This document shows, one piece after another, positions 14,642 to 49,019 of a stretch of 64,000 nt of DNA; position 1 is the stretch's first letter; each line of letters starts with the position of its first letter. Origin of the DNA: an uncultured Cytophagaceae bacterium (GTDB lineage: Bacteria; Bacteroidota; Bacteroidia; Cytophagales; Spirosomataceae). Below the pieces are notes generated by a model. It saw only the letters and a list, made by a program, of their open reading frames with translations, ran no database searches and was not told where the DNA came from. Made by a program: the position numbers and the translations under genes. Location of the stretch: assembly GCA_903898715.1 (NCBI GenBank), contig CAIUGL010000077.1, forward strand, positions 1 through 64,000, read 5' to 3'.

Positions 14642-15634
14642 AAAATCAGTATAAGCTTCCTGTAATTGATTTACTTGAATGCCATGGCCACAAGCGTAAT
14701 GGCCTAAAGGGCATTTCTTTTTCCCATGCGACCCGCAAGGTTTACAAGTTAAACTTTCGTTTGATTCAATGACCCGATTCCAAGTAGCCAAAGGTCCAAA
14801 TCCAAATTCAGGTGTCGTCGAACAAAATACCGCCACCGTAGGCGTGTTCACCGCAGAGCAAATATGCAATGGGCCTGAATCATTCACGAATGCCAAAGCG
14901 GCTTGTTGGTACACCCCAATCGCCTCCAACAATCCCAATTTCCCCGTTAGATTATGAATATTATGCTGAGGACACGCACGTGCAATTGTAGCCGATAATT
15001 CCATTTCATTCGGCGCACCCATGAGGACAATAGCTTGATCTTTAGGTAATTGTAAAATAAAGTCAATCCAAGTTTGAAGCGGTAAACGCTTTGTTTCCCA
15101 CACGGAACCAGGTGAAATACATAGGTATTGTTTAGCTTTCAAGGGTGTTGGCAACGAAGGGGTGGACGACAAAAATGGTGCATAAAACTGCTTTCCGAGC
15201 CATTTTTCAACTAAATCAATGTTTCGCTCCACTTCATGAACCCCATGACCAAAGCGATGTTTAACAGATTCATTAAATAGGAATGAGACTGGATTCTCCT
15301 GAAACCCAGTTACCTTTTTCGCACCCATGGAAACGCTCAAAAGTCCCATCCCGAAGAATCGTTGGACCACGAACACCTGATCAAATTTTTCTTTGCTTAA
15401 TTGCTTCCGTAGCGAAAACCAAGATTTTAGTTTTTTCGACTTATCATAGCCCCAAACCTTGGTCAGATTATCATGGGGGTATGCCTCAAAAACAGGCTCT
15501 AAACCTGCCCTAACTAGTAATTGAACCTTAGTTTGTGGGGATTCATGCCGGATTTTTTCCAATAAAGACGTAACTAACACCGCATCACCTAAGAAAGCTG
15601 TTTGGATAATGAGTACGTTGGAATTTTGCAACAT
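14621..15634 (-). CDS. Glycosyltransferase family 9 (heptosyltransferase-like)
   Basis: 337 residues in two Rossmann lobes. The N-terminus VLIIQTAFLGDAVLVTSLL and the C-terminal lobe with ISPGSVWETKRLP, FVNDSGPLHICSAVNTPTVAVF and the Cys-rich CKPCGSHGKKKCPLGHYAC tail match ADP-heptose:LPS heptosyltransferases of family GT9. It acts on the cytoplasmic face of the inner membrane in lipopolysaccharide core assembly. It is a single gene; its 3' end overlaps pyrB by 21 bp tail to tail, so the two transcripts are antisense there. The exact sugar and acceptor cannot be read from sequence. Confidence 0.9.
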   Translation of the reverse strand: MLQNSNVLIIQTAFLGDAVLVTSLLEKIRHESPQTKVQLLVRAGLEPVFEAYPHDNLTKVWGYDKSKKLKSWFSLRKQLSKEKFDQVFVVQRFFGMGLLSVSMGAKKVTGFQENPVSFLFNESVKHRFGHGVHEVERNIDLVEKWLGKQFYAPFLSSTPSLPTPLKAKQYLCISPGSVWETKRLPLQTWIDFILQLPKDQAIVLMGAPNEMELSATIARACPQHNIHNLTGKLGLLEAIGVYQQAALAFVNDSGPLHICSAVNTPTVAVFCSTTPEFGFGPLATWNRVIESNESLTCKPCGSHGKKKCPLGHYACGHGIQVNQLQEAYTDFLSARGE

Positions 15635-47976: not shown

Positions 47977-48100
47977 ATCAGTTTTTCAGTCAAATACAGA
48001 ATGAACAAGTCATAATTTGAATGAGCATTTACAGGTGACCCCGCTACTTTTATACTGCCATCGCGACGCAAATCAAATTCACCTTTAAACATGAAAATCA

Positions 48101-48277
48101 ATGAAAAATGACTGGATTACCCTAGATAATTTTAGCAACTATGAACTTAGTTGGCATGAACAAATGCACATCGAAGCAGGAGGTTTTTGGGAGGTAGTTG
48201 GCATAATCTGTGGCGTTTTAGCCGTTGTCGCTATTGTCTATTTAATTGGTGGTGCTGCCGTCATCTTAGCACTTTAA
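48101..48277 (+). CDS. Double-glycine leader peptide A (bacteriocin-like, hydrophobic)
   Basis: 58 residues, read directly from codons. The leader (1-28) ends ELSWHEQMHIEAGG, matching the LS..EM..I..GG pattern of substrates of C39-peptidase ABC exporters; cleavage is expected after Gly27-Gly28. The mature part (29-58) is 30 residues, very hydrophobic, with one Cys (Cys37) and a GxxxG motif (Gly34-Ile-Ile-Cys-Gly38). Upstream, a six-codon frame ATG...TGA (48091-48111) overlaps this start. Peptide B follows 23 bp later. No exporter gene is nearby. The combination suggests one half of a two-peptide bacteriocin or a secreted signal; activity is not shown. Confidence 0.75.
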   Translation: MKNDWITLDNFSNYELSWHEQMHIEAGGFWEVVGIICGVLAVVAIVYLIGGAAVILAL

Positions 48278-48300
48278 CGCATCGTATAATCGAACATAAC

Positions 48301-48477
48301 ATGGAACTAGAAAAATTCAATAGACTCGAATTGAGTCAGCAGGAGATGCATGAAATCTCCGGAGGAAATTGGTGGTCTGATTTCAAATCAGGCTTTGAAG
48401 AGGGATTCAATTGGGCCATTGGCGTCATTAGAGATTTGATTTCCTTTTCAGATGAATTAAAAACACTAGCTAAATAA
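48301..48477 (+). CDS. Double-glycine leader peptide B (bacteriocin-like, amphipathic)
   Basis: 58 residues from ATG 48301; the open frame extends to 48187 but that part lies inside gene A in another frame. The leader (1-22) reads RLELSQQEMHEISGG, an excellent double-glycine leader. The mature part (23-58), starting NWWSDFKSG, is 36 residues, Trp-rich, amphipathic, with GxxxG (Gly31-Phe-Glu-Glu-Gly35) and a charged C-terminal helix ending KTLAK. The size, leader and GxxxG match the partner of peptide A. The next gene begins 1 nt after its stop. Known in class IIb bacteriocins: both peptides have GxxxG and act together; here this is inference. Confidence 0.82.
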   Translation: MELEKFNRLELSQQEMHEISGGNWWSDFKSGFEEGFNWAIGVIRDLISFSDELKTLAK

Positions 48478-48478
48478 G

Positions 48479-48739
48479 ATGAATCAAGATCCGATCCGTG
48501 AACTACAGGCTAAAATCAATCATCAAAAACAATTGATTTCAGAAACACATACAAACAAAAACCAAACAATCGAATTAACGATTAATGGTCATTTCGAAAT
48601 AACGAAACTGTATATCTTGCCGGAAGTGGCACACGAAACGTTGGCGATGGATTTACCTAGTATCCTTACCGAAGGAATTAAATCTGTGAGTGAAAAAATT
48701 CACCAAGTATTGATGGAATTTCAAGCAGCCAACTCATAA
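48479..48739 (+). CDS. YbaB/EbfC-like small protein in the peptide operon
   Basis: 86 residues, starting 1 nt after the stop of peptide B. An N-terminal helix (IRELQAKINHQKQLISE) is followed by a beta hairpin TIELTINGHFEITKLYILPE and a C-terminal helix (LTEGIKSVSEKIHQVLMEFQ). This order, and the TINGxxxxxxxxIxPE pattern, resemble the nucleoid-associated YbaB/EbfC family. The position suggests a role for the peptides, such as immunity, folding or control, rather than the usual recR linkage. The fold assignment is from pattern only. Confidence 0.6.
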   Translation: MNQDPIRELQAKINHQKQLISETHTNKNQTIELTINGHFEITKLYILPEVAHETLAMDLPSILTEGIKSVSEKIHQVLMEFQAANS

Positions 48740-48750
48740 GTTGGCTGCTT
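48723..48750. terminator. Hairpin covering the stop codons of two convergent genes
   Basis: Perfect 12-bp stem AAGCAGCCAACT / AGTTGGCTGCTT with a 4-nt loop. It contains the stop codon of the YbaB-like gene and reaches that of the XRE gene. There is no T-run, so termination may be partial. Confidence 0.5.
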
Positions 48751-48940
48751 ACATTAACTCCCGAACATCCACCTTAAAATAATCGGCAATTGCTTGCAAT
48801 CTCTCTACGCTTAATTTGGTTTTTCCCGCCTCAATTTTAGCATACGTACTTTGCGTGATTTTTAAATTAAATGCAACGGCCTCTTGCGAAATGTGGCGTT
48901 CTTCCCGTAAAGTTCGTAGGTTAATGAGTAGCTGGGACAT
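48749..48940 (-). CDS. Small XRE-family helix-turn-helix regulator
   Basis: 63 residues from ATG 48940 (a start 7 codons earlier is possible). The whole protein is one HTH_3 domain: LRTLREERHISQEAVAFNLK, ITQSTYAKIEAGKTKLSVERLQAIADYFKVDVREL. It is convergent with the peptide operon and ends 9 bp from it, making it a candidate regulator. No effector domain is attached. Confidence 0.88.
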   Translation of the reverse strand: MSQLLINLRTLREERHISQEAVAFNLKITQSTYAKIEAGKTKLSVERLQAIADYFKVDVRELM

Positions 48941-49019
48941 CTTCGATTTGGATAAAAACAAATCTACACGAATCTAGCAGGCATCAAAGCGAAAAAACTG
49001 ATTATAAAAATCAGTTGAC

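Follow-up and report, generated by a model that had tools for sequence, protein, structure and literature searches.

Two adjacent genes in the window (the whole 64,000-nucleotide stretch of DNA that was analysed), here called A and B, probably encode the precursors of an exported, bacteriocin-like two-peptide system. The case for A and B as an exported pair is strong, and the genes themselves, their pairing and conservation, a matching exporter in the same genome and an operon in relatives were all established by computation. The putative identity as a bacteriocin rests on likeness, in that both peptides have a GxxxG, the exporter is of bacteriocin type and there are neighbours of class IIb type, and this reading is weakened by the anionic charge of the peptides, a missing immunity gene and matches to bacteriocin models that stay under cut-off. 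The locus in the window is made up as follows.

47999-48052, + strand: upstream element, GAAT-N16-GAAT-N22-TACTTTTA, 48 nt before the ATG of A
48101-48277, + strand: gene A, 58-aa precursor with an ATG start; predicted 27-aa leader and 31-aa hydrophobic mature part
48301-48477, + strand: gene B, 58-aa precursor; predicted 22-aa leader ending EMHEISGG and 36-aa Trp-rich mature part
48479-48739, + strand: gene C, YbaB/EbfC-like protein of 86 aa, starting 1 nt past the stop codon of B
48749-48961, - strand: XRE-type HTH_3 protein of 70 aa (PF01381, E=1.2e-16), convergent

The initial annotation had described a tandem pair of 58-residue open reading frames with double-glycine-type (GG) leaders, ending IEAGG in A and ISGG in B, and with one GxxxG in each precursor (G34-G38 in A, G31-G35 in B), and both genes are present as described, 23 nt apart. 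Its warning that B is easily mis-started was correct, since the mechanical six-frame listing begins B at an upstream TTG (96 aa) instead of the internal ATG that yields 58 residues. Gene C and the conserved upstream element did not figure in it.

Profiles of A and B, the latter built from three genomes, were used to search 38 genomes of the genus, and only strong matches were retained, those with E above 0.05 being dropped (raw tallies, 21 and 25 of 38). The strong matches to A and to B fall in the same 17 of the 38 genomes, with A followed by B in tandem at all 17 loci and 6 to 27 nt between them; the pair is absent from 21 genomes. Sixteen of the 38 genomes reach at least 90% completeness with no more than 5% contamination. 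Of these, 3 carry the pair and 13 do not, so that its distribution is patchy; the carriers are mostly less complete assemblies. A third, weak match to A in the window's own genome (contig C68, E=0.83) was by eye no GG peptide. Rates of substitution were compared by the Nei-Gojobori method within the window's clade, using the nearest and the second relative. The dN/dS of A was 0.14 with the nearest relative and 0.06 with the second (dS 2.0, near saturation), that of B was 0 with the nearest relative, the one computable comparison, and that of C was 0.14 and 0.15; the two flanking genes that were compared gave 0.06-0.12. Purifying selection thus acts on A, B and C in the window's clade.

An alignment of homologues, proposed in the initial annotation as a check on leader, glycine site, GxxxG and pairing, found the leader, the -1 Gly and the GxxxG conserved and A and B always paired (17/17). 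The 17 A and the 17 B sequences can each be aligned across leader and mature part, with a -1 Gly that is invariant in 17/17 for both; the invariant positions include E20, G27, G28, F29, W30, G34 and G38 in A, and E15, I19, G21, G22, W24, D27, F28, G31, F32, G35, F36, W38 and A39 in B. To obtain the leader register, 25 leader segments from A, B and peptides related to them were aligned, with segment ends of our own choosing, and neither E at -8 nor G at -1 varies in this alignment. The register common to B leaders (E at -8, I at -4) places the cut in A after Gly27, and the predicted site in that register is Ala26-Gly27/Gly28, one residue before the site proposed earlier. The 36 residues given for mature B therefore stand, and the 30 given for mature A become 31 in the shared register. 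The cut site of A reads Ala-Gly/Gly in the window and three relatives (4/17) and Gly-Gly/Gly in the remaining 13/17, and the window's A leader has Gln at -7, where Leu or Met is found otherwise. The GxxxG lies at mature positions 7-11 in A (register cut) and 9-13 in B, in 17/17 each. A GxxxG in a single sequence is no evidence, because shuffled mature parts often show one (27-50% for A, 5-42% for B); it is the fixed place in 17/17 that counts.

Mature A of the window (31 residues, register cut) has a mean hydropathy of 2.38 and a charge of -1, counted as K/R minus D/E, and mature B (36 residues) has a hydropathy of -0.23 and a charge of -2; across the 17 carriers, A has a charge of 0 or -1, and that of B ranges from -2 to +1. 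A has one cysteine and ends in VILAL, and B has no cysteine. The description of A as hydrophobic and of B as Trp-rich held, and the amphipathicity claimed for B proved only suggestive against shuffles, as its hydrophobic moment is not clearly above chance (267/5000 shuffles as high); that of A is not above chance at all (1075/5000). An AlphaFold model of B, made from 3 sequences, predicts a helix at 2-20, a break at the GG and a second helix at 24-57 (mean pLDDT 79.6). A search of solved structures with A gave a single match, which was taken for chance.

No exporter lies inside the window, as the initial annotation had said. Its conclusion that the locus is an orphan fell once the rest of the genome was searched for a C39 ABC transporter and a membrane-fusion partner, as it had itself suggested: the genome holds a C39 exporter with an HlyD-type adaptor on another contig, and four relatives have them in the same operon as the pair. 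The window's genome (86% complete, 189 contigs) gives one Peptidase_C39 match, a 721-aa C39-ABC protein on contig C177, and a 381-aa HlyD-type adaptor adjoins it directly upstream; the two sit between a gene that we take to be rpoC-like and a DUF3467 gene. The C39, ABC membrane and ATPase domains of a C39 ABC transporter are all present, and the C39 Cys, His and Asp, the Walker A, the LSGGQ and the Walker B are intact. Its closest solved relatives, alike over the full length, are entries of PCAT1, deposited as an ABC-type bacteriocin transporter (4ry2, E=1e-141), and the leader of the B profile weakly resembles that of the PCAT1 substrate CtA (E=0.24). PCAT1 comes from a Gram-positive bacterium; here, in contrast, an HlyD adaptor accompanies the ABC protein.

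Among open reading frames of 40 aa or more, no GG peptide was seen beside the exporter on C177. A leader profile run against the window's genome found exactly two places up to E=10, namely A and B, with E-values (6.6e-6 and 2.1e-5) to be read in the light of both being themselves rows of the profile. Thus lone peptides and a lone exporter match each other within the assembled genome, and this C39 ABC protein presumably exports A and B; pair and pump are matched here by a genome-wide search together with relatives that still hold the operon. The upstream element was absent from all exporter loci that were scanned for it, that of the window's genome included. Short tandem TTAGACG-like repeats were observed after the rpoC-like gene and before the exporter (locus L002, about 15490-15545), and similar ones were noted by eye in G134 and G124.

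Within the genus, a C39 ABC protein is present in 15/17 carriers of the pair and 2/21 non-carriers (Fisher p = 1.2e-6, shared ancestry ignored). The carriers without a match are G142 (72% complete) and G144 (71% complete), and the non-carriers with one are G070 and G081. The full operon is contiguous in G147, G131, G143 and G132, in the order A, B, CarbopepD_reg protein, YbaB-like protein, HlyD and C39 ABC, the genes of G147 having been identified by Pfam. The CarbopepD_reg protein of these operons is about 600 aa long, and only its N-terminal domain matched solved structures, namely SusC-type receptors. All four operons are followed by the convergent HTH and nucleotidyltransferase genes known from the window, and the nitroreductase gene precedes A in three of them, the contig of G132 beginning just before A. 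G146 and G145 are consistent with this order, each split over two contigs. In G139 and G136, A, B, CarbopepD_reg and YbaB-like genes are followed by a 187-aa HlyD remnant, with the full HlyD and C39 genes elsewhere and the C39 ABC of G139 lying in two overlapping frames. Seven genomes (G133, G141, G128, G129, G124, G134 and the window's own) have A, B and the YbaB-like gene only, G144 has A and B directly before the HTH gene, and the contig of G142 ends inside the CarbopepD_reg gene. The genus thus lets one exporter locus be followed through several arrangements.

A search of 16 chosen genomes with the HlyD protein of the window's genome (E 1e-5) found relatives in 10/16, G142 giving only a fragment; at this threshold none was found in G128, G129, G133, G141, G144 or G081. 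Divergent C39 ABC proteins with intact catalytic residues were observed in four carriers in which no HlyD relative was found (L095, L097, L100, L103). In an exporter tree, starred support was obtained for each of the operon clade, the window clade, G136/G139 and the G141 group; G139 is represented in it by a fragment of 431 aa, and the branches of G081 and of the G141 group are long. We do not claim that the exporter moved as one piece; the exporter of the window's clade forms its own branch, which would fit relocation or replacement and so does not distinguish between them. The non-carrier G070 holds a different tandem GG pair (L092, 9597-9779 and 9791-9979, - strand) near an HlyD-C39 exporter, which occupies the rpoC-like/DUF3467 site, as does the exporter of the window's genome; one of these two peptides passes the TIGR03949 cut-off (26.7 vs 21.5 bits).

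The YbaB-like partner is the unusual feature of the system. Gene C scores under the cut-offs of both TIGR00103 (17.9 against 49.45 bits, E=0.0025) and PF02575 (17.5 against 25.5 bits, E=0.0046). Its relatives in G088 and G001 (L134 and L141, from two other genera) exceed the PF02575 cut-off, that of G147 falls just under it and that of G030 gives no match, and a profile of 17 members matched the solved YbaB structure 1j8b with E=0.021. A model of C was too poor for a fold search (mean pLDDT 47.0); its elements run helix, three strands, helices. C is present at 15/16 A/B loci readable that far, with further relatives in G088, G030, G001 and, as a 66-aa open reading frame, G113, and in the full-operon relatives it stands between the peptides and HlyD-C39.

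A relative of the convergent HTH protein adjoins the module in 16/16 A/B genomes readable that far, and a role as its regulator is possible; no match to it was found in the corresponding interval of G125, the one genome without A and B that was searched for it. Beyond the HTH gene lies a PolyA_pol/HD-type nucleotidyltransferase gene, and upstream of A lies that of a 209-aa nitroreductase-family protein. G125 (L186, 4112-8425) was seen to hold other genes, a Gp49-like one included, between nitroreductase and nucleotidyltransferase, so that the site from flank to flank looks variable. The upstream element has the general form GAAT-N16-GAAT-N22/23-TA[AC][AT]TTTA and lies 48-57 nt before A in 17/17 A/B genomes. 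Over the 38 genomes the pattern gave 27 matches, 17 at A and 10 elsewhere, against 6 for the pattern reversed. It is probably a promoter with a direct repeat of 20-bp period. The element before A is the sole match in the window's genome, and so no wider regulon is seen.

Beyond the genus, 222 genomes of the family were searched with the B profile, and 26 gave matches with E no higher than 0.01, comprising the 17 carriers, two further full pairs (G088 and G030) and 7 genomes that match mainly in the leader. Of 390 genomes drawn evenly from the order, 4 match at E 0.001, namely the window's genome, two of the family and G381; the last, from another family, was rejected as a carrier, its match being a 57-aa open reading frame with a membrane segment and no GG leader. 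G088, of another genus, has A', B', YbaB-like, CarbopepD_reg, HlyD and C39 genes in one run, the YbaB-like and CarbopepD_reg genes being swapped relative to the genus operon, with an outer membrane efflux protein gene farther out. A histidine kinase (PF06580) and a LytTR response regulator are encoded about 1.5 kb upstream of its pair (L134, 5214-7009), and peptide-sensing control is possible there. G030 has A'', B'', CarbopepD_reg and YbaB-like genes, and since its single C39 gene and an HlyD gene lie about 40 kb away, its exporter is detached like that of the window. G001 encodes two GG peptides, a CarbopepD_reg/DUF5686 protein, a YbaB-like protein, a C39 protein and HlyD; no literature on DUF5686 was found in our search.

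Among known systems, the class IIb bacteriocins of the lactococcin G/enterocin 1071 type come close. As in these, two adjacent small genes have GG-type leaders (17/17 loci), each peptide has a GxxxG or GxxxG-like motif in a mature part of about 30-36 residues, and there is a peptidase-containing ABC exporter, here in the genome and in relatives within the operon. In the available text of the acidicin P paper (PMC10434283), lactococcin G-alpha has G7xxxG11, the same place as the GxxxG of mature A in the register cut. The present system differs in having a Gram-negative producer, an HlyD adaptor and, within the operon, a gene for a YbaB-like protein. Most known two-peptide bacteriocins are cationic, whereas the peptides of the window are net anionic (-1 and -2). 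By eye, no immunity open reading frame was recognisable in the window between the nitroreductase and nucleotidyltransferase genes, and C or an unlinked gene could be the immunity factor.

No scanned A or B member reaches the cut-off of the class IIb models TIGR03949, NF038034 and NF038035, for which scores were given for the first member only and E-values for the others, and A of the window matches none of the three. The NCBIfam lactococcin G-alpha model matches 10/17 A over the leader end and mature start, and the lactococcin G-beta model 11/17 B, all under cut-off. The best A-type match to NF038035 was that of G030 (L135; 27.6 bits against a cut-off of 37, E=2.3e-6). When ten other GG peptides of the family and genus were scanned with NF038035, 8 did not match and 2 did (26.5 and 17.1 bits), these two being no clean negatives, because both start with GFW, have Gly as mature residue 7 and might be remote A-types. 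With leaders removed, 1/10 mature parts (1/5 A, 0/5 B) matched lactococcin G-alpha, weakly at 15.2 bits; the match thus needs leader and mature start jointly, and we claim no kinship of mature parts with lactococcin G from matches that are under cut-off as well. TIGR03949 matched 7/10 of the control GG peptides, two of them over cut-off (one G070 peptide and the L140 peptide). Our best reading is that A and B work like a class IIb pair yet should not be filed in that class.

The Cdz system of Caulobacter likewise belongs to a Gram-negative bacterium and comprises two peptides, which contain GxxxG, have leaders ending G[G/A/S] and are exported by type I secretion. Its peptides are characterised in the available text of PMC5380434 by 60-151 residues, a glycine zipper and a charged or polar C-terminus; A and B, in contrast, have 58 residues and a single GxxxG each, and A ends hydrophobic. 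No small membrane protein was noticed beside A and B. The bacteroidetocin, as the available text of PMC6671954 has it, is a single peptide of class IIa-like type that has two or more cysteines and is mostly accompanied by a thiol oxidoreductase gene, and its authors report having found no immunity protein; the cysteine content of A and B is lower. The available text of PMC11944543 describes class IIb clusters that automated tools assigned in a Bacteroides. The literature on bacteriocins and YbaB that was searched did not, in the text available, contain the A-B-YbaB arrangement, and by title it held no relevant paper on YbaB with bacteriocins and none on the topic of two-peptide bacteriocins in Bacteroidota. 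Dirix et al. are said to have screened Gram-negatives in 2004 for GG peptides with cognate transporters. Given that screen, the bacteroidetocins and the Bacteroides clusters, the kind of system is already known.

A and B might instead be exported pheromones, or modulators of the producer's own envelope, and no toxins, which we regard as unlikely. The model of the pheromone BlpC matches 16/17 B and 11/17 A, all under cut-off, but the match lies mainly in the leader and is also seen in 5/10 other GG peptides. The anionic peptides, the lack of a recognised immunity gene and the adjoining HTH protein would agree with a signal. So would the kinase and LytTR regulator of G088, the repeat before A, since a direct repeat of 20-bp period suits LytTR-type regulators, and the GerE-type HTH genes beside two other GG loci. 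However, no kinase gene was seen by eye in the open reading frame listings of the genus's four full-operon loci, and two co-conserved, membrane-type GxxxG peptides fit a pore pair better.

A further reading is decay in the window's lineage, in which the locus would have lost its exporter, leaving A, B and C as remnants or as genes poorly served by the exporter of another locus. The graded states in the genus, from full operon (4 contiguous, 2 split) through HlyD remnant (G139, G136) and A-B-C (7) to A-B (G144), point this way, as do the separate branch of the window clade's exporter and the Ala at -2 of A, found in that clade only. The purifying selection on all three genes, the retained upstream element and the intact exporter motifs argue against decay, and we consider it improbable. 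Very improbable, on our estimate, is that A and B are exported without forming a docked pair, whether as two single-peptide bacteriocins, as toxin and helper, or as modified peptides (RiPP). GG peptides elsewhere in the family do form larger sets rather than strict pairs, yet A and B co-occur 17/17 in fixed order, each with an invariant GxxxG. Modification is suggested by a weak match of B to TIGR04149, a leader model of rSAM-modified RiPPs (17.2 against 25 bits, under cut-off), but no modification enzyme was noticed among the operon genes inspected.

For the two-peptide, bacteriocin-like reading that we prefer, we infer co-transcription, export, cutting, pairing, killing and the role of C along the following lines. 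A, B and C would be transcribed together from the conserved upstream element. The single C39 ABC exporter with its HlyD adaptor, on the other contig, would recognise the leaders, cut at the glycine site and export the mature parts. Mature A, hydrophobic and of membrane-spanning length, would then pair through its GxxxG face with that of the Trp-rich, helical mature B, and pairing in the target membrane would make that membrane leaky. C would act in the producer, where we suggest that it is a cytoplasmic holding factor or an antidote for the precursors. Taken further, the system might be a Bacteroidota-specific two-peptide weapon in which a once nucleoid-binding YbaB-fold protein is now a dedicated precursor chaperone or antidote and replaces the membrane immunity protein, a proposal that we put forward only tentatively. 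If it is true, the YbaB-fold partner remains beside the peptides also in genomes that encode the exporter at a different site, and a YbaB-like protein may have a new role. Nineteen related peptide pairs (17 in the genus, with those of G088 and G030) are available for synthesis and testing. Exported pairs of this kind are easily missed in Gram-negative environmental bacteria, as their genes fall under common open reading frame cut-offs and the exporter may lie elsewhere.

Some observations concern other GG loci of the family. Rce1-like genes (PF02517) are carried by the GG-peptide loci L136, L137 and L140, and none was seen beside A and B in the window. The available text of PMC9298176 credits Kjos et al. 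2010 with linking this family to bacteriocin self-immunity, and reports that no immunity role was found for SilX. Small HTH proteins of the GerE/LuxR type (PF00196) lie beside GG loci at L092 (9028-9219, - strand) and L141 (11603-11848, - strand). At L137 (545-7371) there is a run of about 20 short GG-leader open reading frames, several of which repeat one another almost exactly; the Rce1-like gene lies within this run, and two of these GG reading frames begin GFW, like A.
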